Position numbers and translations under genes: made by a program. The notes beneath the pieces were generated by a model that worked only from the letters and a program-made list of their open reading frames with translations, was not told the DNA's origin and ran no database searches. From Hydrogenophilales bacterium 28-61-23 (GTDB lineage: Bacteria; Pseudomonadota; Gammaproteobacteria; Burkholderiales; Thiobacillaceae): a stretch of 64,000 nt of DNA. Position 1 is the stretch's first letter. Every line of letters starts with the position of its first letter. The stretch lies in NCBI GenBank assembly GCA_002281555.1, contig NCGJ01000007.1:1-64000 (forward strand), in the 5' to 3' direction. Positions 2,355-64,000 of the stretch are shown in pieces.

Positions 2355-3485
2355 ATGACCCGAACCCACCTGAAGACCGTCAGCATCGCCACCAGCCAAG
2401 ATCCGAGCACGCTGAGCAAACAACAAAAAGCATTCAATTCACTGATCAAGCAAATTGAAAAATCCCGGGCGCAACTGGTCGCGTGGGAGGCGGCCAGTCA
2501 GGCTTACCTGGAAAAATACTCGCGCGAGTGGGTTCCGCTCGTCGAGACCTCGCAGGCGTTGCAAATCAAGTTTGTACATCGGCTTGACCAGGCCAGTTGT
2601 CAACCGGGCCTGACCAAGACTGAACGCGGCATGATTGCCGATCTGATCGTCGAGTTGGCTGGCGATCTGGTTGCGGCGCGCAACGATGCGGAGATGAAAG
2701 CCGTCTACAACAAGCACAGCGGAACCGACTTCGACAGCGAAGAAGCCGCGCGCATCAAGGCCATGAAAGCGATGCTGGAGGCGTCGTTGGGGGTTGAGCT
2801 GGGCGACGTCGACATGAACTCGCCCGAGGACGTCATGCAGCATGCCAAGGCGCAAATCGATGCAAGGCAGGCGCGGGAAGACGCTGAGCAAGAAGCGAGA
2901 GAGGAACACAAGGCCAAGCGCAAGAAGTCTGCCAAACAGCTCGCCAAGGAGGCGCGGCAACAGGCCGAGGCGCAGCAGATCAGCCAATCGATCCGCGAGG
3001 TCTACCGCAAGCTGGTCAGCGCCCTGCACCCGGACCGAGAGCCAGACCCGCGGGAGCGGGATCGAAAAACCGCCTTGATGAAGCGCGTCAACCTGGCCTA
3101 CGACAAGAAAGACCTGCTGCAACTACTGGAACTGCAACTGGAGCTGGAGCACATCGACCAGGCCAGCATCGGCCAGATCGGCGAAGAACGGCTGAAGCAC
3201 TACAACACGATCCTGAAAGAACAGCACATCGAACTGATACAGGAAATCATGCATGTCGAAGGCGAGTTCAGAGCGCGCTTTGGTATCGACCCTTTGTTGC
3301 GGGTTTCCCCCGGCAACATCATGGGCCATCTAAAAAACGACATCCGAGATGTCCAGTACGTCATCCAGGACATTGGCAAAAATCTCCGTGTGTTCGATGA
3401 CGTCAAGAAATTCAAGGCCTGGCTCAAGGAGATGCGGCGGCGCCCGGCACGCGATGATTATTTCGACGACCCGGACTACTTCTGA
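2355..3485 (+). CDS. J-domain-like protein of unknown partner
   Basis: The 376-residue protein is highly charged, with a long alpha-helical, probably coiled-coil stretch rich in Lys, Glu, Gln and Ala (about residues 165-215). After it comes a short J-like helix-HPD-helix segment (VYRKLVSALHPDREPDP, about 217-233) with the HPD tripeptide that J-proteins use to stimulate Hsp70 ATPase. No glycine/phenylalanine region or zinc repeats follow, so it is not DnaJ itself. Similar proteins with a degenerate J-domain occur in proteobacteria, usually as hypothetical proteins. The dnaK operon lies 1.5 kb downstream, which fits an Hsp70 connection but may be chance. The function is unknown. Confidence 0.7.
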   Translation: MTRTHLKTVSIATSQDPSTLSKQQKAFNSLIKQIEKSRAQLVAWEAASQAYLEKYSREWVPLVETSQALQIKFVHRLDQASCQPGLTKTERGMIADLIVELAGDLVAARNDAEMKAVYNKHSGTDFDSEEAARIKAMKAMLEASLGVELGDVDMNSPEDVMQHAKAQIDARQAREDAEQEAREEHKAKRKKSAKQLAKEARQQAEAQQISQSIREVYRKLVSALHPDREPDPRERDRKTALMKRVNLAYDKKDLLQLLELQLELEHIDQASIGQIGEERLKHYNTILKEQHIELIQEIMHVEGEFRARFGIDPLLRVSPGNIMGHLKNDIRDVQYVIQDIGKNLRVFDDVKKFKAWLKEMRRRPARDDYFDDPDYF

Positions 3486-51468: not shown

Positions 51469-52209
51469 TCATTTCGTAACGCACTGCTCCAGATCCAGCC
51501 CGGGCAGTTCGCGGAACGCTTGTTTGATGCGTTCGCCCCAGGCGGTGCGCAAGGATTTGAAATAGGGATTGTCCGCTTCGATACGCAGACGCTGATCCGC
51601 GCGCAGACTGTCGCGTCGATAGCACATCAGGTCGAGCGGCATGCCGACCGAAAGGTTGGATTTGAGCGTGGAATCCATCGAAATCAGCGCGCATTTGGCG
51701 GCTTCTTCCAGCGTGCTGTCCCAATGGAAGATACGGTCGAGGATGGGCTTGCCGTACTTCGATTCGCCGATCTGGAAATAGGGCGTATCGACGGTCGCTT
51801 CGACAAAGTTGCCGGCGGCGTAGATGCTGAACAGACGCGGTGCTTCGCCCTTGATCTGGCCGCCGAGCAGAAAACTGGCGTTGAAATCGATGCCGAAGGC
51901 CTTGAGCGATACCGCGTCGCGACGGTGCACATCGCGGATACAGTCGCCGACATGGCGGGCGGCCGCGAACATGTCGGACACATTCAACAGGCTGGCGCCT
52001 TCCTTGAGCTGGCTGTCCTTGATCAGGCTGACCACGGCCTGGGTGATCGCCAGATTGCCGGCCGAGAGCAGCGTCAGCACGCGTTCGCCCGGATTCTCGA
52101 ACACGCTCATCTTGCGGAATGAGTTGATCTGGTCGACGCCGGCATTGGTGCGGGTATCGGAAAGAAACGCCAGGCCGGCGTCCATCAGCATGCCTACGCA
52201 GTAAGTCAC
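51469..52209 (-). CDS. Anbu, bacterial proteasome-like peptidase
   Basis: The 246-residue protein matches Anbu (BPH), an ancestral-type proteasome homologue that forms open-spiral or ring assemblies. The GTG at 52209 is chosen, as it has GAGGAA upstream and gives the family start MTYCVG, with the catalytic threonine at position 2. Further hallmarks are FLSDTRTNAGVDQI, FRKMSVFENPGERVL and LLGGQIKGEAPRLFSIYAAGNF. In genomes Anbu is repeatedly next to ATP-grasp, alpha-E and transglutaminase genes, as here. It heads the leftward arm and is divergent from the ATP-grasp gene, 116 bp away. Confidence 0.9.
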   Translation of the reverse strand: MTYCVGMLMDAGLAFLSDTRTNAGVDQINSFRKMSVFENPGERVLTLLSAGNLAITQAVVSLIKDSQLKEGASLLNVSDMFAAARHVGDCIRDVHRRDAVSLKAFGIDFNASFLLGGQIKGEAPRLFSIYAAGNFVEATVDTPYFQIGESKYGKPILDRIFHWDSTLEEAAKCALISMDSTLKSNLSVGMPLDLMCYRRDSLRADQRLRIEADNPYFKSLRTAWGERIKQAFRELPGLDLEQCVTK

Positions 52210-52279
52210 GATCGATTCCTCAATAGAAAACGGGTCGAGCATAGCAGGCGAGCCCGGAATGGTGGGCGTCGCCGGCGAC

Positions 52280-52295
52280 TGGCACGCTCCTTGCA
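52280..52295 (+). promoter_or_regulatory. Near-consensus sigma-54 promoter of the ATP-grasp arm
   Basis: TGGCACGCTCCTTGCA matches TGGCACG-N4-TTGCW at every conserved base. It lies in the divergent region between Anbu and the ATP-grasp gene. Transcription should begin near 52307, leaving a leader of about 19 nt with the AGGAG at 52313-52317. Sigma-54 needs an enhancer-binding activator; no clear NifA (TGT-N10-ACA) or NtrC site was seen upstream. Confidence 0.78.
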
Positions 52296-52325
52296 GTGAT
52301 CAAGCCAGAAACAGGAGCGTATGCC

Positions 52326-53774
52326 ATGAACACCCTGACCCAGGATTACACATCGGGCGAATTCTTCGATGAACTGATCGCCACCGGCGGCCAACCGCGG
52401 GTCGCCGCGCGCGCCTTGTTCGAGCACCTGGACGCGCTCGACGCGGCCGATCTGGAAGAACGCCGCCAGGCGGTGAATGCCGCCATCATGACCATGGGCA
52501 TCACTTTCACCGTCTACAGCGAGGCCGGCAACATAGACCGCGCCTGGCCGTTCGACATCATCCCGCGCGTGATGTCCAAAAAGGAATGGATGCGCATCGA
52601 GGCGGGCCTGAAGCAACGCCTGACCGCGCTGAACCTGTTCATCAACGATCTCTACAACGAACAACGCGTCGTCAAGGATGGTGTTTTTCCGATTGAAGTG
52701 CTGGCTGGCTCGAAGAATTTTCGGGCGCAATGCCAGGGCATGACGCCCCGTTTTGGCGTCTGGGCGCACGTCTGCGGCACCGACTTGGTGCGCGACGGCG
52801 ACGGCACGGTCTATGTGCTGGAAGACAATCTGCGTGTGCCGTCCGGTGTTTCCTACATGCTAGAAAACCGGGAGTTGATGAAACGTCTGTTCCCCGAGCT
52901 GTTCCATTCTTCCAGCATCCTGCCGGTGGATGACTATCCGGCCCGCCTCTACGACACGCTGGCCGCGTTGTCGCCGCGCAAGGGAACTCGCCCGGTGGTC
53001 GTGGTGCTGACGCCGGGCATTTTCAACTCAGCCTATTTCGAGCACAGCTATCTGGCGCAAAAAATGGGCGCGGTTCTGGTCGAGGGCAGCGACCTGGTGG
53101 TGCGGAAGGACGACTGCGTCTACATGAAGACCATCTCCGGCCTGCGCCGGGTCGATGTGATCTACCGCCGCATCGACGACGATTTCCTCGACCCGGAAGC
53201 CTTCCGGCCCGATTCCGCGCTCGGCGTCAAAGGCCTGATGCGGGCCTGGCGCGCCGGCAATGTCGGCATCGCCAATGCGCCCGGCGCCGGCGTGGCGGAC
53301 GACAAGGTGGTCTATGCCTTCATTCCGAAGGTGATCAAGTACTACCTCGATCAGGATCCGATCATTCCCAACGTGCCCAGCTACCTGTGCATGTACGAGG
53401 ACGAAAAGGACTACGTGCTGGCCAACCTGGACAAACTGGTGGTGAAGCCGGCCAACGAATCCGGCGGCTACGGCATGCTGATCGGCCCGCGCGCGACGCC
53501 GGAGGAACGCGCCCAGTTCGCCGAGTTGATCCAGGCCAACCCGCGCAACTACATGGCGCAGCCGACGCTGGCCTTGTCCACCGCGCCGACCCTGATCGAC
53601 GACCATCTGGAACCGCGCCACCTCGATTTACGTCCGTTCATCCTGCAATCCGACCAGCTCTATTGCACCACCGGCGGCCTGACCCGGGTGGCGATGAAGG
53701 CCGGTTCGCTGATCGTCAATTCATCCCAGGGCGGTGGCGCCAAGGACACCTGGATCGTCGATGTCGAAGAATAA
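52326..53774 (+). CDS. Circularly permuted ATP-grasp type 2 protein
   Basis: The 482-residue protein has the domain order typical of DUF404/DUF407 ATP-grasp proteins: an N-terminal cap (ALFEHLDALDAADLEERRQAV), FGVWAHVCGTDLVRDGDGTVYVLEDNLRVPSGVSYMLEN, the catalytic VDVIYRRIDDDFLDPE, KLVVKPANESGGYGM, and the end TTGGLTRVAMKAGS. These enzymes should activate a carboxylate with ATP and join it to an amine. Start at 52326 has AGGAG; the longer frame from 52296 would begin upstream of the predicted transcript. It is followed by the alpha-E gene 17 bp on, both behind a sigma-54 promoter. Confidence 0.92.
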   Translation: MNTLTQDYTSGEFFDELIATGGQPRVAARALFEHLDALDAADLEERRQAVNAAIMTMGITFTVYSEAGNIDRAWPFDIIPRVMSKKEWMRIEAGLKQRLTALNLFINDLYNEQRVVKDGVFPIEVLAGSKNFRAQCQGMTPRFGVWAHVCGTDLVRDGDGTVYVLEDNLRVPSGVSYMLENRELMKRLFPELFHSSSILPVDDYPARLYDTLAALSPRKGTRPVVVVLTPGIFNSAYFEHSYLAQKMGAVLVEGSDLVVRKDDCVYMKTISGLRRVDVIYRRIDDDFLDPEAFRPDSALGVKGLMRAWRAGNVGIANAPGAGVADDKVVYAFIPKVIKYYLDQDPIIPNVPSYLCMYEDEKDYVLANLDKLVVKPANESGGYGMLIGPRATPEERAQFAELIQANPRNYMAQPTLALSTAPTLIDDHLEPRHLDLRPFILQSDQLYCTTGGLTRVAMKAGSLIVNSSQGGGAKDTWIVDVEE

Positions 53775-53791
53775 GACTGCTGGAGACCATC

Positions 53792-54757
53792 ATGCTTTCC
53801 CGAGTTGCTGAAAGTCTTTACTGGATGGCGCGCTATATGGAACGCGCCGAGAACACCGCGCGTTTCATCAACAGCACGACCCAGGTGCTGCTCGACCTGC
53901 CGCGCGGCGCATCCTTTGGCTGGGATACGCTGCTCAAGGTGGCCGGCCTGGACGCGCTGTACCACAAGCATTACGTCACCGCCAACGAAGCCGACATCAT
54001 GCGCTTCATGATCATGGACGAACGCAACCCGGGTTCGATCCTGGCCAGCATCCACAGCGCGCGTGAAAACACGCGCACCTTCCGCGAAGTGCTGCCGATG
54101 GAAATCTGGGAGCGCATCAACGACCTCTACCTCTACACCCGCGACAACGCCGCGCGCGCCACGCATGGCCGCAGCCAGAGCTACGAGGTGCTGAACGGCA
54201 TCATCGAACGCCGTCAATCGGTGATCGGCCTGCTGGTCGGCTCGATGAGCCACGACCTGGCCTATCAATTCCTCCAGCTCGGACGCAATCTGGAGCGCGC
54301 CGACATGACCACGCGCATCATCGACGTCAATTCGGCGGTCAACCTGCCCGAGGATGCCACCTCCGACATGGCGCGCGAACGGCTCTGGATGAGCACGCTC
54401 AACGCCTTGTCGGCTTACCAGATGTATCGCCAGCATGTCGGCGTCCACGTCGAAGGTCCGCTGGTCGCGAAATACCTGCTCACCGATCCGCATTTCCCGC
54501 GCACGGTGACGCATTGCCTGGGTGAAATCGAAAACACCTTATCCGTGTTGGTCGATTACCAGATTCCGCTCCAGGCCGCCCGCACCGCCTGGCGTCGGCT
54601 GGAGGGCATGAATTTCGACGATGTTTCGCCCGCCGTGCTGCACGAGCATCTCGACCAGATCCAGGCCGACCTGGGCAATCTGCACGATGCCATCTCGCGC
54701 AAATATTTCTCCCTGCATCAGAACGCCGCGATGCAGGAACAAAGCCAGAGCCAGTGA
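53792..54757 (+). CDS. Alpha-E domain protein
   Basis: The 321-residue, all-helical protein is the stand-alone partner of ATP-grasp proteins. It opens with the family sequence MLSRVAESLYWMARYMERAENTARF and has the RNLERADMTTRI segment. Biochemical function is unknown; conserved glutamates and arginines suggest an enzymatic or binding role with the ATP-grasp product. TGGAGA precedes the start. Its stop overlaps the next gene's GTG by 4 bp. Confidence 0.9.
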   Translation: MLSRVAESLYWMARYMERAENTARFINSTTQVLLDLPRGASFGWDTLLKVAGLDALYHKHYVTANEADIMRFMIMDERNPGSILASIHSARENTRTFREVLPMEIWERINDLYLYTRDNAARATHGRSQSYEVLNGIIERRQSVIGLLVGSMSHDLAYQFLQLGRNLERADMTTRIIDVNSAVNLPEDATSDMARERLWMSTLNALSAYQMYRQHVGVHVEGPLVAKYLLTDPHFPRTVTHCLGEIENTLSVLVDYQIPLQAARTAWRRLEGMNFDDVSPAVLHEHLDQIQADLGNLHDAISRKYFSLHQNAAMQEQSQSQ

Positions 54758-56049
54758 GCATTCCTCATCCGAGAGCCTCGAAAATGATCCCAGCCTCCCT
54801 CGATTTCCCCCGCTACGGCGACAAACTCAACTCCGATTTTTTCGAGGAATTCCTCGTTCAGTTGCTTGAGGAGCGCGATCGCAGCGGCCTCACCCGCGAG
54901 ATTCGGCAGATCGACGCGCTGATGATCACGGTCGAACCCGGCCACTCCATTGCCTATGTCGGCGAGCTGTGCCTGATGACGCCGTATCACTACCTGGTCA
55001 CGCTGGAATCGGAAACCCACTACACCCACATCCTGCGCATCGACATGAGCGCGCCCGACGTGCTGGTGCGCGAGGTGAAAGACCCCAACACGCGCGGCAT
55101 CTTCCGCAGCCTGAACGAGGTCTACCCGATCGGCGCGCAGAAGCCGAACTCGCGTTACATGGGCGAAATCTTCCGCGTCACCAGCCTGCACGACGTGGTC
55201 GAACTGCAGAAATCGCGCGACATCCGTTTCTTCAACCAGGATCAGATTCGCAAACTGGAACTGCCCGGCAACATGGCCGTGGTGAAGCCCAGCCCGTATA
55301 CCCACAACATCGTCGGCTACTGGGAACGGCCGGAAGAGCACATCCGCGTCTATCCGCTCGGTTTGTCGAGCATTCGTCCGGATGTGCAAGCCGCCTACGA
55401 GGCCGCCAAGGAATCCCAGGCCAAGCTCGGCATCGACAAGATGCTGCTGCCGATCGACCATCTCGCGACACGCGTCTACAGCCAGAACCGGGAAGCCGCG
55501 ATCCTCGAATACCTGACCCTGACCAGCTATTACTACTGGGGCTCGTACGACATCGCCGACCAGAACTCGTCGACCAACGTCACCAAGAGCGTGCATCACG
55601 GCAATGAGCTGGAAAGCCCGGCCAAGGTGTTCACCGCCGCCAATCACCCGTATTTCGTCAACCACCTGCTGCATCTGCCATCGCCGACCGAAGCCTTCGT
55701 GCGCAACTACGGCCCGCGCCTGCACCACATCGCGGTGGCCGTGAACGACGGCCACACCGACGTGGGTGGCATCAGCAAGGCCAACATCGACTACGTGGTG
55801 GCGGCGCTACGCGATTGCGGCCAGGATTTCCTGCTCGACGTGATCGGCAGCGAGGAAGAAGGGCTCAAGCAAATATTCTCCAGCGCCTCGGAATATTCCA
55901 GCCTGATCATCGAGTACGTGCAGCGCTTCGGCGACTTTCAGGGCTTCTTCACCAAGGACAACGTCGCGCGGCTGACCCATGCGGCCGGGGTGGAGGAGGG
56001 CCTGCGCGAAATGGATGCGGCGGCGCGGGCGGCGGAAGTGGCTTCGTAG
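54754..56049 (+). CDS. Protein with HPPD-like dioxygenase C-terminal half
   Basis: The 431-residue protein has an unrecognised N-terminal half (about 1-225) and a C-terminal half resembling 4-hydroxyphenylpyruvate or hydroxymandelate dioxygenases of the VOC fold. It has LLPIDHLATRVYSQNREAAILEYLTLT, LHHIAVAVNDG and IIEYVQRFGDFQGFFTKDN, the last like the FGxGNF end of HPPD. The three iron ligands expected are His236, His325 and Glu387, all present. GTG at 54754 overlaps the alpha-E stop (GTGA); ATG 54784 is the alternative. The placement as third gene behind the sigma-54 promoter suggests an oxidative modification step in the ATP-grasp pathway. The substrate is unknown, and HPPD itself is unlikely because the rest of tyrosine breakdown is absent nearby. 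Confidence 0.68.
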   Translation: MSIPHPRASKMIPASLDFPRYGDKLNSDFFEEFLVQLLEERDRSGLTREIRQIDALMITVEPGHSIAYVGELCLMTPYHYLVTLESETHYTHILRIDMSAPDVLVREVKDPNTRGIFRSLNEVYPIGAQKPNSRYMGEIFRVTSLHDVVELQKSRDIRFFNQDQIRKLELPGNMAVVKPSPYTHNIVGYWERPEEHIRVYPLGLSSIRPDVQAAYEAAKESQAKLGIDKMLLPIDHLATRVYSQNREAAILEYLTLTSYYYWGSYDIADQNSSTNVTKSVHHGNELESPAKVFTAANHPYFVNHLLHLPSPTEAFVRNYGPRLHHIAVAVNDGHTDVGGISKANIDYVVAALRDCGQDFLLDVIGSEEEGLKQIFSSASEYSSLIIEYVQRFGDFQGFFTKDNVARLTHAAGVEEGLREMDAAARAAEVAS

Positions 56050-56060
56050 GGCGCGCGGCG

Positions 56061-58238
56061 ATGAACAGTCAGGCAGCCACCGGGATACGACCGCTGGCGG
56101 GCATTCTTTCGGAGCAGATCCCCGGCGCGCCCAGGGAAGCCGGTTTGCTGGATCGGAACCGCTTGCTTACCACGCTGATCAGCAATCTGGTCGGCATGAT
56201 TTATCGCTGTCGGCTCGATGAAAACTGGACCATGGAGTTCGTCAGCGATGGCTGTTTCGAACTCACCGGCTATGCGCCGGAGGAACTGCTGCTGAACGCT
56301 CGCGGCAACTACGAACAGATCACCCATCCGGACGACCGGGCGCGGGTTAGACGCGCGATCCTCGACGCCCTGGCGCGCAACAGCCAATACGACGTGGAAT
56401 ACCGCCTGTTGCACTGCGATGGTTGTCTGCGTTGGGTCTGGGAGCGCGGTGTCGGGGTGATGAACCGCGCCGGCGAGCCGGAGGCGATCGAAGGCTTCAT
56501 TCAGGACATCACCCAACGGCATGCCGCCGACGATGCGTTGCGTGAAACCGAGCGCCGCTATCGCAGCATCTTCGAACATGCCACCGAGGGCATCTTCCAG
56601 ACCACGCCGGACGGCCGCTACATCAACGCCAACCCGGCGCTGGCCAGCATCTACGGCTACGCCACGCCGGCCGAACTGATCGCCGACCTGTCCGACATCC
56701 AGCACCAGCTTTATGTCGATCCGGAACGGCGCCGCGAATTTGTCCGCTTGATGCGCCAATATGGCTACGCGCGCAATTTCGAATCGCACGTGTTCCGGCG
56801 CGACGGCAGCATCTTCTGGATTTCCGAGAACGCGCGCGCGGTGCGCGACGAGAACGGCGAGGTGCAATTTTACGAAGGCACCGTCGTCGAGATCACCGAG
56901 CGCAAACGCTATCAAGAGGAGCTGGAATACCAAGCCAGCCACGATAGCCTGACCGGGCTGCCGAACCGCGCACTCCTGGTCGACCGCCTGAAGCAGACTA
57001 TCCACGCCGCGCGGCGCGATGGCCGGGTGGTGGCGGTGGCATTCGTCGATCTCGATCATTTCAAGCTGATCAACGACAGCCTTGGCCACCATGTCGGCGA
57101 CCGCTTGCTGCTGGACATGGCGGAACGCCTGCGCGCCTGCGTGCGTAGCCAGGACACCGTGGCGCGACAAGGCGGCGACGAATTCGTGCTGATTCTGGCC
57201 GACCAGCCCGACGAGGCCGGCGTGACCATGCTCATCCGCCGTGTGCTGGAGGCGGTCGCGCAGCCCTGGGCGGCCGAACATGGCGAATACAGCATCAGTT
57301 GCAGCATCGGCGTCAGCTTGTTTCCGCGCGACGGCAAGGGGGCGGAAGCCCTGCTGAAATGCGCCGATCTGGCCATGTTCAAAGCCAAGGACATCGGCCG
57401 CAATACCTTCCAGTTCTTCACGCCGGAACTGAACGGCGCCATGATCGACCGCCTGGAAGTGGCCAACGGCCTGCGTCGCGGCCTGGAGCGCAACGAATTC
57501 CTGCTGCATTACCAACCCCGGGTCGATCTCGCCAGCGGCCGCATCGTCGGCGCCGAGGCGTTGATCCGCTGGCAACGTCCGGACCAGGCGCTGACACCGC
57601 CTGGACAATTCATCCCGGTGGCGGAGGAAACCGGGCTCATCGTGCCTATCGGCGCCTGGGCGCTGCGCGAGGCGTGCGCCCAGAACATCGCCTGGCAGGC
57701 GATGGGGCTGCCGCCGATCGTGGTTTCGGTGAATCTCTCGCCGATCCAGTTCCGTCGCGCAGGCCTGGTCGCCGAAGTCGCCAATACGCTGCGAGAAACC
57801 GGTCTGGAGGCGCGCTGGCTGGAATTAGAGCTGACCGAATCGTTCATCATGCAGGATGCCGAGCGCATCAACCAGGCGATGGCCGGGCTCAAGGCGCTGG
57901 GCGTGGAAATCGCCGTCGACGATTTCGGCACCGGCTATTCCAGCCTGAGTTACCTGAAACGTTTTCCGGTGGACCGTCTCAAGATCGACAAGAGTTTCGT
58001 GCAGGACGTGAACCACGATCCCGACGATGCCGCCATCGCCCGCGCCATCATCAGCCTGGGCCACAGCTTGAATCTGCGCGTGGTGGCCGAAGGCGTCGAA
58101 ACCGAAGCCCAGCTCGAGTTCATGCGCGCGCACGGCTGCGACGAGATTCAAGGCTATTTCTTCAGCCGGCCCGTGCTGGCGACGGAATTCGAGGCGATGT
58201 TGCTGCGCCAGCGCGACGACTATCCGTTCGGCGGATGA
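56061..58238 (+). CDS. PAS-GGDEF-EAL cyclic di-GMP protein
   Basis: The 725-residue protein has two PAS domains (about 35-145 and 160-285), a diguanylate cyclase domain with GGDEF intact (RQGGDEFVLIL, about 375) and an EAL phosphodiesterase domain (AEALIRW, about 495; NLSPIQFRR, LTESFIMQ, DDFGTGYSSLSYL), all with catalytic residues in place. It may make or break cyclic di-GMP depending on PAS input. The ATG at 56061 lies 11 bp after the dioxygenase-like gene, so it may belong to the same transcript. No signal peptide or membrane segment was seen. Confidence 0.92.
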   Translation: MNSQAATGIRPLAGILSEQIPGAPREAGLLDRNRLLTTLISNLVGMIYRCRLDENWTMEFVSDGCFELTGYAPEELLLNARGNYEQITHPDDRARVRRAILDALARNSQYDVEYRLLHCDGCLRWVWERGVGVMNRAGEPEAIEGFIQDITQRHAADDALRETERRYRSIFEHATEGIFQTTPDGRYINANPALASIYGYATPAELIADLSDIQHQLYVDPERRREFVRLMRQYGYARNFESHVFRRDGSIFWISENARAVRDENGEVQFYEGTVVEITERKRYQEELEYQASHDSLTGLPNRALLVDRLKQTIHAARRDGRVVAVAFVDLDHFKLINDSLGHHVGDRLLLDMAERLRACVRSQDTVARQGGDEFVLILADQPDEAGVTMLIRRVLEAVAQPWAAEHGEYSISCSIGVSLFPRDGKGAEALLKCADLAMFKAKDIGRNTFQFFTPELNGAMIDRLEVANGLRRGLERNEFLLHYQPRVDLASGRIVGAEALIRWQRPDQALTPPGQFIPVAEETGLIVPIGAWALREACAQNIAWQAMGLPPIVVSVNLSPIQFRRAGLVAEVANTLRETGLEARWLELELTESFIMQDAERINQAMAGLKALGVEIAVDDFGTGYSSLSYLKRFPVDRLKIDKSFVQDVNHDPDDAAIARAIISLGHSLNLRVVAEGVETEAQLEFMRAHGCDEIQGYFFSRPVLATEFEAMLLRQRDDYPFGG

Positions 58239-58284: not shown

Positions 58285-59157
58285 TCACTCCAGGAAAACC
58301 CGTACCTCGTACACCCCGCCAATCACGCCGAACTCCTTTTCGCCGCGCAATTTGCCCGGCAACAGGCCGTGAAAGAAGAACACCTTGGGCAGCGGCACTT
58401 GCACTTCCAGAATGCTGTCGCCGAATTCGCAGGCGCGTTCCCGCTCGCGGGTGAAGGAGTTGAGGCTGTTGAGCAGGACGGTACGCCGATGCCGATTTGC
58501 CGTGGCCTCGCCCAATTCCTCGTAACCGCCCATCCGGTTCACGCCCCGGTACAGGGTCAGGTGGGTTGATGCCGGCCACTGCCGCGCCAGCTCGTATTGG
58601 CAATAGCTGTAGAGCAGATCGAACTGCGCTTCCAGGCTGTTGGTGTTGTACAGGCCGCCGCTGCGCTGTTCCAGGTAATGCCGGTAGGCAGGGCCGGAGA
58701 AATCGCGGATCGGCCCGCCGTGATGGCGCGGCAGCAGACCGAAGCGCGACTCCACCCAGCCTTTCAGCACCGCGCCTTCCCGCCCGTCGGCGTCGAAGGC
58801 CCAGCCGCGCAAGATGCGCAGATAGCTGGCCTTGGCGCGGCCGTGTTGCGGCGTATAGCCGGCTGCCTCCGGATCCTCGAGGCTGAAGGCGGCACCCATG
58901 TGGGCCATGAACATGCCGGCGCGCTCGGCCGGATCGTCCAGCCTTGCCAGATGCTCGAACAACGGTCGGTGCAACTCTTCGACGCCATCCAGTTTCAGCG
59001 GCACCGGATGCCGCTGGTAAGTCAGGCTGCCAAGAATCGCCGCCGGCAGGTTGCAGCGGTTGATGGGCAGACGGACGGCGCGCGGAAGGCTGGTGGACAT
59101 GTTCGTTGGACGGATGAGGTGCTGTTGTATCCGGGCGACAGCCGGAGTCTCGGTCAT
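58285..59157 (-). CDS. draT: DraT, dinitrogenase reductase ADP-ribosyltransferase
   Basis: DraT transfers ADP-ribose from NAD to an arginine of nitrogenase Fe protein, switching nitrogen fixation off after ammonium or darkness. The protein of about 290 residues has NRCNLPAAILGSLTYQ, the NAD-binding LTLYRGVN, LNSLNSFTRERERA and the catalytic-type glutamate segment FGDSILEVQVP, all as in known DraT. The start is uncertain: ATG 59157 or 59100. A sharp palindrome at 59260-59288 lies upstream. Its partner draG is not beside it; only a decayed fragment is found at 39958-40257. Confidence 0.9.
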   Translation of the reverse strand: MTETPAVARIQQHLIRPTNMSTSLPRAVRLPINRCNLPAAILGSLTYQRHPVPLKLDGVEELHRPLFEHLARLDDPAERAGMFMAHMGAAFSLEDPEAAGYTPQHGRAKASYLRILRGWAFDADGREGAVLKGWVESRFGLLPRHHGGPIRDFSGPAYRHYLEQRSGGLYNTNSLEAQFDLLYSYCQYELARQWPASTHLTLYRGVNRMGGYEELGEATANRHRRTVLLNSLNSFTRERERACEFGDSILEVQVPLPKVFFFHGLLPGKLRGEKEFGVIGGVYEVRVFLE

Positions 59158-59259
59158 TCGGGGGCTCTGTGCTGGGCCAGGTCGACACATATTGGGGGCG
59201 TAGCGAAAGAATGACAACGCGCCGGGGGAAAGTCCAAACAGACCGGTATCTGCATGATG

Positions 59260-59288
59260 AAATATCCGACTGTGAGTGTCGGATATTT
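59260..59288. promoter_or_regulatory. Perfect 29-bp palindrome upstream of draT, IscR type 1-like
   Basis: AAATATCCGAC and its reverse complement flank a seven-base centre (TGTGAGT). The inner part fits the IscR type 1 pattern ATASYYGACT...AGTCRRSTAT at about 20 of 25 bases as I recall it. It lies about 100 bp upstream of the draT start. A Rho-independent terminator on the plus strand is the alternative, as TTTTT follows, but no plus-strand gene ends nearby. Confidence 0.45.
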
Positions 59289-59355
59289 TTACAGTCTTGC
59301 CTGTATTTGATTTTTTAGGCTCATAACCTATTGATTCCAATTGGCCGCGCGACGC

Positions 59356-61471: not shown

Positions 61472-63004
61472 CTATACCTCGCACACCCCCGCCATCCCGA
61501 CTATGCCGTCCTGATCCACGCTTTCGATCCTGACCGTATAGCCCCACAACCGGGCGATGTGGCGCAGCATCTCCGGCGTGCTTTCGCCCAGCGGTCGGCG
61601 GTTGTGCATGTAATGGCGTAGGGTCAGGGAGCGGTCGCCATAGACATTCACATCGTAGACCTGGATGTTGGGCTCCCGGTTGCCCAGGTTGTATTGCTCC
61701 GCGAGCAGTTGGCGCACCGCGCGGTAGCCGGCGTCGTCGTGGATGGCGGCGATTTCCAGTTTCTCTTCCTGATCGTCGTCGACCACCGCGAACAGCTTCA
61801 GTTCGCGGATCAGCCTGGGTGACAGGTACTGGGCGATGAAGCTTTCATCCTTGAAGTTGCGCATGGCGAAGTCCAGGGACTTCACCCAATCGCTACCGGC
61901 CAACTCCGGAAACCAGCGGCGGTCTTCCTCGCTCGGCTGTTCGCAGATGCGGCGCAGGTCGGTGAACATGGCGAAGCCGAGCGCATAGGGGTTGATGCCG
62001 CTGTACATGCGGCTGTAGTAGGGCGGCTGGTAGACCACGTTGGTGTGGCTTTGCAGGAATTCCAGCATGAAGCCGTCGGTCAGTTTGCCTTCCTCGTACA
62101 GGTGGTTGAGCAGGGTGTAGTGCCAGAACGTGGCCCAACCCTCGTTCATGACCTGGGTCTGCCGCTGCGGATAGAAGTACTGGGCGATCTTGCGCACGAT
62201 GCGCACGATCTCGCGTTGCCAGGGCTCCAGGCGCGGGGCGTTCTTCTCGATGAAATAGAGCAGGTTTTCCTGCGGCTCGGCGGGGAAGCGGCGCTCCTTT
62301 TTCTCTGCCTCCGACGCCTCCTTGGGCGGCAGCGTGCGCCACAGGTCGTTGACCTGGGACTGCAGGTAATCCTCGCGCTCGGTCTGGCGCGCCTGTTCCT
62401 TGGCCATCGACAGCTTGGCCGGGCGCTTGTAGCGGTCGACGCCGTAATTCATCAGCGCATGGCAGGAGTCGAGCAGGTTTTCCACCGCTTCCTCGCCGTG
62501 GCGCTGTTCGCATTCGGCGATGAAATTGCGCGCGAACACCAGGTAATCGAGGATGCCCTCGGCATCGGTCCAGGTGCGGAACAGGTAGTTGCCCTTGAAG
62601 AAAGAGTTGTGGCCATAGGCGGCGTGGGCGATCACCAGCGCCTGCATGGTCATGGTGTTTTCTTCCATGAGGTAGGCGATGCAGGGGCTGGAATTGATCA
62701 CGATTTCGTAGGCCAGGCCCATCTGGCCGCGCTTGTAGCTTTTCTGGGTGGACAGGAACTGTTTGCCGTAGGACCAGTGGTGGTAGCCCACCGGCATGCC
62801 AACCGAGGAATAGGCGTCGATCATCTGCTCGGAGGTGATCACCTCGATCTGGTTGGGATAGGTGTCGAGGCCGAAATGGGCGGCGACCCGGCCGATTTCC
62901 CGGTCGTAGGTGTCGAGCAGCTCGAAGGTCCATTCCGAGCCCTCCGAGAGGGGAGCGCGCTGGACGGCAGGATCGGGCGAGGGGGAGGGGGCAAGTTGTT
63001 CCAT
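61472..63004 (-). CDS. SpoVR/YcgB family protein
   Basis: The 510-residue protein belongs to the SpoVR family (EWTFELLDTYDREIGRVAAHFGLDTYPNQIEVITSEQM, SYGKQFLSTQKSYKRGQMGLAYEIVINSSPCIAYLMEENTM, MNEGWATFWHYTLLNHLYEEG). Bacillus SpoVR acts in spore cortex formation; the enterobacterial homologue YcgB and the neighbouring yeaGH genes are induced by stationary phase and nitrogen starvation. It follows yeaH here with a 1-bp gap, so the order is yeaH-spoVR, probably with the kinase gene yeaG outside the window. Confidence 0.95.
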   Translation of the reverse strand: MEQLAPSPSPDPAVQRAPLSEGSEWTFELLDTYDREIGRVAAHFGLDTYPNQIEVITSEQMIDAYSSVGMPVGYHHWSYGKQFLSTQKSYKRGQMGLAYEIVINSSPCIAYLMEENTMTMQALVIAHAAYGHNSFFKGNYLFRTWTDAEGILDYLVFARNFIAECEQRHGEEAVENLLDSCHALMNYGVDRYKRPAKLSMAKEQARQTEREDYLQSQVNDLWRTLPPKEASEAEKKERRFPAEPQENLLYFIEKNAPRLEPWQREIVRIVRKIAQYFYPQRQTQVMNEGWATFWHYTLLNHLYEEGKLTDGFMLEFLQSHTNVVYQPPYYSRMYSGINPYALGFAMFTDLRRICEQPSEEDRRWFPELAGSDWVKSLDFAMRNFKDESFIAQYLSPRLIRELKLFAVVDDDQEEKLEIAAIHDDAGYRAVRQLLAEQYNLGNREPNIQVYDVNVYGDRSLTLRHYMHNRRPLGESTPEMLRHIARLWGYTVRIESVDQDGIVGMAGVCEV

Positions 63005-63005
63005 C

Positions 63006-64000
63006 TCAAGTCACCTTCTTGCTGAACAGTTCCCGGAATACCGGATAGATGTCCTCCAGCCCGAGGATGCGCTGCATGGCGAAGCGCGGGCTGCTCGCCC
63101 GCACCAGCTCATACTCGCGCCAGAGGCTCTGCGGTTCCCTGGCTTCGATCTCGACATAGGCGAAATACTGCACCAGCGGCAGGATGCTATGGGTCAGCAG
63201 CTCGCGGCAGCGCAGCGAATCCTGTTCCCAGTTGTCGCCGTCCGAGGCCTGCGCGGCGTAGATGTTCCAGGCCGCGCTGGGGTAGCGATCCAGGATGATT
63301 TCGCGCATCAGCTCCAGCGCGCTGGACACCACGGTGCCGCCACTTTCGCGCGCCGAAAAGAAGTTTTCCTCGTCCACTTCACTGGCCACGGTGTGGTGGC
63401 GGATGAAGACCAGCTCGATGCGTTCATAACTCTTGGTCAGGAACAGATAGAGCAGCATGAAGAAACGCTTGGCGATGTTCTTGCGGTTCTCGTCCATCGA
63501 GCCGGATACGTCGAGCAGACAGAACATCACCGCCTGGCTGGAGGGCGTCGGCTGGTCGACCCGATTGGCGTAGCGCAGATCCCAGGTGTCGATGAATGGC
63601 ACGGCGGCGATGCGCGCCTTCAACGTGGCGATTGCCTCGCGCAATTCATCGGCCTCGGGACTGGCGCCGAGGCCCTGGGCGATCAGACCCTCCAGTGCTT
63701 CCTCAGCCTCGCGCAGCGCTTCACGCGGGCCGGAGGCCATGGTCAGACGGCGGCCGATGGCCTGTTTCATCGAGCGCACGACGTGCAGGTTGGACGGATT
63801 GCCCTGGCTGACGAAGCCGGCGCGGGCGCGTTTCACCTCCGGCACGGCGGCGAGTTGTTTCTTGACCAGATCGGGCAGCGCCAGATCCTGGAAGAAGAAT
63901 TCCATGAACTCTTCCTTGCTCAGTTCGAACACGAACTCGTCCATGCCTTCGCCGTCCGGCGAGCCCTTGCCGCCACCGCTGCCGGCACCAGCCTCGGGCC
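63006..64000 (-). CDS. yeaH: YeaH/DUF444 family protein, 5' part outside the window
   Basis: The visible 331 codons cover the C-terminal three quarters of YeaH: the glycine-rich stretch just inside the edge (SGGGKGSPDGEG), DEFVFELSKEEFMEFFFQDLALPDL, the von Willebrand type A-like MFCLLDVSGSMDENRKNIAKRF with a metal-binding DxSxS, and a late EDIYPVFRELF. The reading frame stays open through the window edge at 64000, so the start lies beyond it. In enterics yeaH is coexpressed with the kinase gene yeaG under nitrogen starvation. Confidence 0.93.
   Translation of the reverse strand, partial: PEAGAGSGGGKGSPDGEGMDEFVFELSKEEFMEFFFQDLALPDLVKKQLAAVPEVKRARAGFVSQGNPSNLHVVRSMKQAIGRRLTMASGPREALREAEEALEGLIAQGLGASPEADELREAIATLKARIAAVPFIDTWDLRYANRVDQPTPSSQAVMFCLLDVSGSMDENRKNIAKRFFMLLYLFLTKSYERIELVFIRHHTVASEVDEENFFSARESGGTVVSSALELMREIILDRYPSAAWNIYAAQASDGDNWEQDSLRCRELLTHSILPLVQYFAYVEIEAREPQSLWREYELVRASSPRFAMQRILGLEDIYPVFRELFSKKVT

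Follow-up and report, generated by a model that had tools for sequence, protein, structure and literature searches.

In a 64,000-nucleotide stretch of DNA from Hydrogenophilales bacterium 28-61-23 (GCA_002281555.1, contig NCGJ01000007.1, positions 1-64,000, forward strand; hereafter the window), open reading frames and Pfam matches reveal a divergent gene block with four rightward and four leftward genes. The rightward genes encode a circularly permuted (CP) ATP-grasp protein, an Alpha-E protein, a candidate dioxygenase of the vicinal oxygen chelate (VOC) superfamily that resembles 4-hydroxyphenylpyruvate dioxygenase (HPPD), and a PAS-PAS-GGDEF-EAL protein. We propose, with a probability of roughly 55%, that this block is a nitrogen-starvation operon of the known CP-ATP-grasp/Alpha-E/transglutaminase/Anbu system, to which one set of proteobacteria has added a dedicated HPPD-like enzyme. 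What is new is the third gene, which encodes an unrecognised and near-obligate enzyme in a known nitrogen-regulated system.

The protein family encoded by the third gene

The third-gene protein has no match in Pfam (above threshold), NCBIfam, PADLOC or PHROGs and no meaningful match among the sequences of the Protein Data Bank (PDB). A total of 216 loci with the VOC gene were found, the best 80 of which are referred to below as the wider loci, and genomes were sampled at the level of the class (n = 369), the phylum (n = 398) and the family (n = 100), with the window genome counted in all three samples. Across Beta-, Gamma- and Zetaproteobacteria and Acidithiobacillus, the VOC proteins are 72-94% identical to that of the window. 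When 44 members were aligned (the window and 43 of the 80 loci, the rest being left out as near-duplicates or for unclear starts), mean column identity was 79%, identity to the window protein ranged over 73-94% and 164 of the 421 positions were invariant. The frame at L019:6421-7665, which was excluded from the alignment, contains an in-frame stop and is either a decayed gene or the result of an assembly error. According to the record titles, named carriers include Thiobacillus, Acidithiobacillus, Gallionella, Methylomonas, Methylotenera and Zetaproteobacteria, many of which are lithotrophs or methylotrophs. A search for distant homologues in the phylum sample returned close family members only, in 7 of 398 genomes including that of the window. 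In the methylotroph loci (L051, L055, L070, L082 and similar), where the VOC proteins are ~73-77% identical to that of the window, the ATP-grasp proteins ~50% and the Alpha-E proteins ~30%, the VOC protein is the most constrained member. The family is conserved like a housekeeping enzyme, yet it stands outside every Pfam and NCBIfam model. No published account of a VOC or HPPD-like member of the system was found in a search that covered few subscription papers, and the word "dioxygenase" does not occur in the main text of two papers on the system, PMC5666114 and PMC6376114.

The resemblance to HPPD lies in the C-terminal half. In a comparison with an HPPD profile by hhalign, this half was aligned with a score of 35.6 and the three metal ligands were matched, while the controls reached at most 27.0 in 100 column shuffles, 16.9 for the reversed profile and 16.6 for the N-terminal half. 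The HPPD comparison set consisted of 12 TIGR01263 matches, 11 of them above the cut-off, with four weak partial matches excluded. Residues H226, H315 and E377, numbered from the ATG start, coincide with the HPPD metal ligands in this comparison, and the QIF motif and the C-terminal N motif are aligned as well. Numbered from an alternative GTG start, these ligands are H236, H325 and E387, and together with Q373, N297 and N403 they are present in 81 of 81 sequences. A joint MAFFT alignment with HPPD places the triad residues among 18 invariant columns at an identity of 18-25%, and 20 of the 44 members have a weak Glyoxalase_4 match (best E 0.013). With the first AlphaFold model, hydroxymandelate synthase and HPPD make up the top three PDB matches found by Foldseek (E 3.4e-4 to 7.2e-4), and most of the matches ranked behind them are extradiol dioxygenases and HPPD. 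With the second model, which is biased to the HPPD fold, the top 50 are all HPPD or hydroxymandelate synthase (E from 8e-11). Residues 221-381 of the second model form the paired beta-alpha-beta-beta-beta modules of the VOC superfamily and carry the His-His-Glu triad, at moderate model confidence. Counting against the assignment are the hhalign probability of only 29-34% (47% for the C-terminal half alone), the poor quality of the first model, made without HPPD rows (pLDDT 52), and the bias of the second (pLDDT 66.7), which arises from the HPPD rows with which it was built.

Like HPPD and hydroxymandelate synthase of the VOC superfamily, the window protein possesses a C-terminal VOC half, the His-His-Glu triad, the QIF motif and a C-terminal helix motif with a conserved N; unlike them, it fits no family model, shares 18-25% identity with them and has an N-terminal half that cannot be aligned by profile. 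With moderate confidence, we assign the third gene product to the HPPD/hydroxymandelate synthase-like fold class. The fold and the metal triad would also suit an ordinary HPPD or hydroxymandelate synthase that has drifted, which we consider highly improbable, as the profile alignment is confined to the C-terminal half, TIGR01263 is unmatched in the window genome and the protein belongs to no NCBIfam family and has no Pfam match above threshold. A canonical HPPD was rejected for lack of the TIGR01263 match, and a canonical HGLS was rejected because PF07063 (HGLS, formerly DUF1338) has no match in the window genome and the VOC protein has no Pfam match. It is also very improbable that the VOC protein lacks catalysis and serves as a metal-binding or structural scaffold: in the literature searched, no reported activity was found for any member of the VOC family, as a scaffold would lead one to expect, but the triad and further pocket-like residues are invariant in 81 of 81 sequences and so are 164 of the 421 positions over 44 sequences. 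Since the fold and the metal ligands point to an oxidation step, we infer that the VOC protein acts as a non-haem iron dioxygenase and tailors a substrate or product of the nitrogen-starvation amidoligase pathway.

Sigma-54 promoter and proposed nitrogen control

A sigma-54 -24/-12 element, TGGCACGCTCCTTGCA, starts 46 bp 5' of the ATG of the ATP-grasp gene. As the initial annotation had claimed, it matches at every conserved base the pattern TGGCACG-N4-TTGCW, which we take to be the sigma-54 consensus and which was used for the scan. The 3.5 Mb genome contains 6 perfect matches to this consensus, and the backwards control none. When the window is aligned with eight relatives, the element stands out within an otherwise diverged intergenic region, with departures of a few bases in two of the nine. 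Among the wider loci, 53 of 80 include the start of the ATP-grasp gene and 300 bp upstream of it; a sigma-54 site was found there with at most two mismatches in 43, with at most one in 27 and without mismatch in 13. The corresponding frequencies are 2.7, 0.9 and 0.2% in random windows from the same loci (n = 4800) and 0.5%, 0 and 0 in shuffled upstream regions. Such sites were found upstream of none of 56 Alpha-E genes (at most two mismatches), 10 of 80 VOC genes, 6 of 17 Anbu genes and 4 of 32 DUF2126 genes. The site before the ATP-grasp gene persists down to ~50% identity of the ATP-grasp protein, in related loci that are not independent of each other. A chance occurrence was rejected on the genome control and on the conservation in 43 of 53 loci, and the sigma-54 site is borne out as real. 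The window genome encodes one RpoN, and the sigma-54 activator domain has 12 strong and 3 weak matches in it. Two of the other five perfect sites (L163 and L164) precede genes that resemble, by eye, those for a nitrate transporter substrate-binding protein and NirB.

One NtrC above the family cut-off is present in the window genome. Using a pattern that we assume to represent NtrC-like sites, matches with at most two mismatches were found in 27 of 54 upstream regions vs 11% of random windows. In the window's own clade of nine (the window and eight close relatives), seven members have two-mismatch matches, but only far upstream, from -378 to -790, within the Anbu gene or past it.

The initial annotation knew of no account of the system with a sigma-54 switch, which published work contradicts. 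In Burkholderia cenocepacia H111, I35_5080-83 (DUF404/DUF407, DUF403 and transglutaminase-like) are reported to drop strongly in an ntrC mutant and are listed among the common targets of sigma-54 and NtrC (PMC5491218). In Pseudomonas putida, PP_2685 (proteasome beta-like) and PP_2688 (circularly permuted ATP-grasp) are reported to be up on nitrate vs ammonium (PMC8050072), and PP_2685-2688 are called likely NtrB/NtrC targets (PMC7801951). The two clusters share with the window ATP-grasp, Alpha-E (DUF403) and transglutaminase-like genes, which are up when nitrogen is short; they differ in that the passages describing them list four genes each, with neither a VOC nor a cyclic di-GMP gene. In marine metagenomes, DUF403, DUF404 and DUF407 are described as accompanying urea metabolism domains (PMC3597751). 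The nitrogen and sigma-54 link of the amidoligase system is already known, and the switch is not new. The ATP-grasp genes named in passages of PMC13207237 and PMC8305402 could not be tied to this system, and passages of PMC10274813 yielded only hvyA, which led nowhere.

Association of the VOC gene with the amidoligase system

The CP-ATP-grasp/Alpha-E/transglutaminase/Anbu system is reportedly due to Iyer et al. 2009. It is described as a predicted peptide synthesis and processing system (PMC5666114, PMC6376114), in which one ATP-grasp member releases phosphate from ATP and a peptidase activity of Anbu was looked for and none found (PMC6376114). In the window, the genes for CP ATP-grasp and Alpha-E are adjacent by Pfam, and transglutaminase-like proteins and Anbu, the latter recognised only through PF00227 (E 5e-6), are encoded nearby. 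All four components are present in divergent arrangement, together with an additional fused ATP-grasp/Alpha-E protein and a second transglutaminase-like protein, and the window differs from the described system by the addition of the VOC dioxygenase candidate. A defence system was rejected as the identity of the block, as six proteins scanned with PADLOC gave no match; a search of plasmid records also gave no result.

The dioxygenase-like gene, which the initial annotation had counted as a cluster member, recurs in the cluster in relatives rather than being absent from it. In 60 of the 80 wider loci, the fetched flank encodes one or more of ATP-grasp, Alpha-E, DUF2126 and Anbu, and in 49 an ATP-grasp gene lies upstream of the VOC gene on the same strand. 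The remaining 20 loci, some on short contigs (L079, L080), show no partner in the flank that was fetched, but each of these 20 genomes encodes Alpha-E elsewhere. In the family sample, Alpha-E is found in 37 of 37 VOC carriers vs 8 of 63 non-carriers, and in the class sample in 27 of 29 carriers vs 79 of 340 non-carriers. The Fisher tests on this co-occurrence treat genomes as independent and ignore phylogeny. The loci of 30 of the 37 family carriers were fetched, with flanks of at most 1.5 kb, and in all 30 Alpha-E lies directly upstream of the VOC gene. This co-occurrence suggests that the VOC protein and the amidoligase system share a pathway.

It is rather unlikely that the VOC protein is instead a stand-alone nitrogen-stress enzyme, acting for example on an amino-acid-derived keto acid, that shares only a regulon with the amidoligase system. 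Such a role would be in line with the 20 of 80 loci without a partner in the flank, in eight of which some neighbouring genes were scanned and are unrelated, and with the methylotroph VOC proteins being ~75% identical to that of the window vs ~50% for ATP-grasp and ~30% for Alpha-E. Mere co-regulation, however, would not need a dependence such as that seen in the 37 family carriers and the 20 genomes with VOC apart, all of which have Alpha-E. Alpha-E also lies immediately 5' of VOC in the 30 family loci, and a sigma-54-like site at -50 to -73 is missing from 21 of the 29 loci in which VOC is the first gene in its own direction.

Based on a nitrogen-starvation operon with a dedicated HPPD-like enzyme, we propose that under nitrogen shortage an enhancer-binding protein (NtrC in many relatives) would activate sigma-54 RNA polymerase at 52280-52295, giving a single transcript for the ATP-grasp, Alpha-E and VOC proteins and here perhaps for the GGDEF-EAL protein. 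The ATP-grasp and Alpha-E proteins may join a carboxylate to an amine, while the VOC protein, with non-haem Fe(II) bound by His-His-Glu, may use O2 to oxidise a small keto-acid-like substrate feeding the ligation or its product. The divergently encoded Anbu and transglutaminase proteins, as predicted in the literature, would then cut or transfer the product, which may be oxidised and peptide-like. More tentatively, and at less than even odds, this unnamed and deeply conserved family of HPPD-like Fe(II) dioxygenases could supply the nitrogen-starvation ATP-grasp/Alpha-E/Anbu pathway of a set of proteobacteria with an obligate tailoring enzyme. If so, the pathway would produce or recycle a new, oxidised metabolite with an amide linkage, which might serve as a nitrogen store and would be acted upon by Anbu and the transglutaminases. 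The Anbu/ATP-grasp/Alpha-E system occurs widely, and a linked oxygenase candidate hints at a chemistry that is O2-dependent and probably keto-acid-like. The VOC gene also offers an experimental handle, as a dioxygenase mutant should accumulate a definable intermediate.

Several observations weigh against the proposed operon and its dedicated enzyme. In the class sample, 79 of the 106 genomes with Alpha-E have no VOC gene, so the core system can do without it. Alpha-E was not found in two of the 29 class carriers, one of these genomes being 79% complete, and 14 of the 29 have the VOC gene within 10 kb of Alpha-E on one contig. The VOC carriers are related to each other, and the co-occurrence counts are uncorrected for kinship. 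A sigma-54-like site (at most two mismatches) at -50 to -73 is found in only 8 of the 29 VOC-first loci (L048, L075, L077, L079, L080, L081, L084 and L085), with none at the VOC loci of Acidithiobacillus that lie apart. Before the ATP-grasp gene, 10 of 53 loci have no sigma-54 site at two mismatches or fewer, and an NtrC-like site (at most two mismatches) within 250 bp upstream was found in none of the nine genomes comprising the window and its eight close relatives. In P. putida, finally, the induction of PP_2686-2688 is reported to be kept in an rpoN mutant (14.2-, 16.0- and 19.6-fold vs 12.6-, 11.0- and 14.7-fold in the wild type; PMC7801951).

Gene layout, the cyclic di-GMP gene and neighbouring genes

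The features of the block are given in Table 1; the initial annotation covered its rightward arm. The order of the four rightward genes and the gaps of 17 bp between the ATP-grasp and Alpha-E genes and of 11 bp between the third and fourth genes were as initially annotated. The overlap of 4 bp between Alpha-E and the third gene follows from the GTG start at 54754; the start at ATG 54784, which leaves a gap of 26 bp, is likelier because many homologues start there or a few codons away, and the GTG was rejected as the likely start.

Table 1. Promoter and genes of the divergent block in the window
Feature	Position	Strand	Evidence and remarks
Sigma-54 -24/-12 element, TGGCACG-N4-TTGCA, TGGCACGCTCCTTGCA	52280..52295	+	Exact consensus; conserved in relatives
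CP_ATPgrasp_2, circularly permuted ATP-grasp type 2 (predicted amide ligase), 482 aa	52326..53774	+	PF14403 E 2.7e-164; PDB 3n6x E 3e-155
Alpha-E protein, 321 aa	53792..54757	+	PF04168 E 9e-82
HPPD-like VOC dioxygenase candidate, 421 aa from ATG	54784..56049	+	Alternative GTG start 54754 (431 aa); profile and fold matches, conserved triad
PAS-PAS-GGDEF-EAL protein	56061..58238	+	Pfam; position unconserved in relatives
Anbu, proteasome-like Ntn hydrolase	51469..52242	-	PF00227 E 5e-6; name Anbu taken from gene context
Transglutaminase-like N-terminus and DUF2126 putative amidoligase, 1131 aa	47984..51379	-	PF09899, PF08379, PF01841
Fused CP ATP-grasp/Alpha-E protein, 843 aa	44815..47346	-	PF14403 E 2.9e-144 and PF04168 E 1.5e-54
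Transglutaminase-like protein, 295 aa	43931..44818	-	PF08379 and PF01841

The initial annotation had placed all four rightward genes in one unit. Among the 30 family loci, a GGDEF-EAL gene follows VOC on the same strand only in the window itself, and the 80 wider loci, of which 11 include less than 2 kb downstream, have no such case. A conserved same-strand cyclic di-GMP member was rejected on these counts. The GGDEF-EAL gene is outside the conserved unit, and in the window it may be co-transcribed with the operon. That it is a functional fourth member linking the pathway to biofilm or motility is improbable: the gap of 11 bp, the shared strand, the presence of both GGDEF and EAL domains and the GGDEF-EAL genes that L022, L084 and L135 carry a short way downstream on the other strand speak for such a role, and the single same-strand case in 30 family loci and none in the 80 wider loci speak against it.

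Convergent with the operon is a nitrogen gene at 58285-59340 (-), encoding the dinitrogenase reductase ADP-ribosyltransferase DRAT (PF07357 E 1e-99). Genes for SpoVR and DUF444 (YeaH-like) are located at 61472-63944 (-) in the window and at L160:1282-3501 (-), and a long open reading frame upstream of SpoVR/DUF444 presumably corresponds to the kinase YeaG, which it resembles by position and length. A sigma-54 site with one mismatch at L160:3261 (-) falls inside the longest reading of this frame and would be ahead of the gene if the start is near 3200. In a second genome, SpoVR and DUF444 homologues (85 and 83%) are located beside the VOC cluster (L027:10688-13134).

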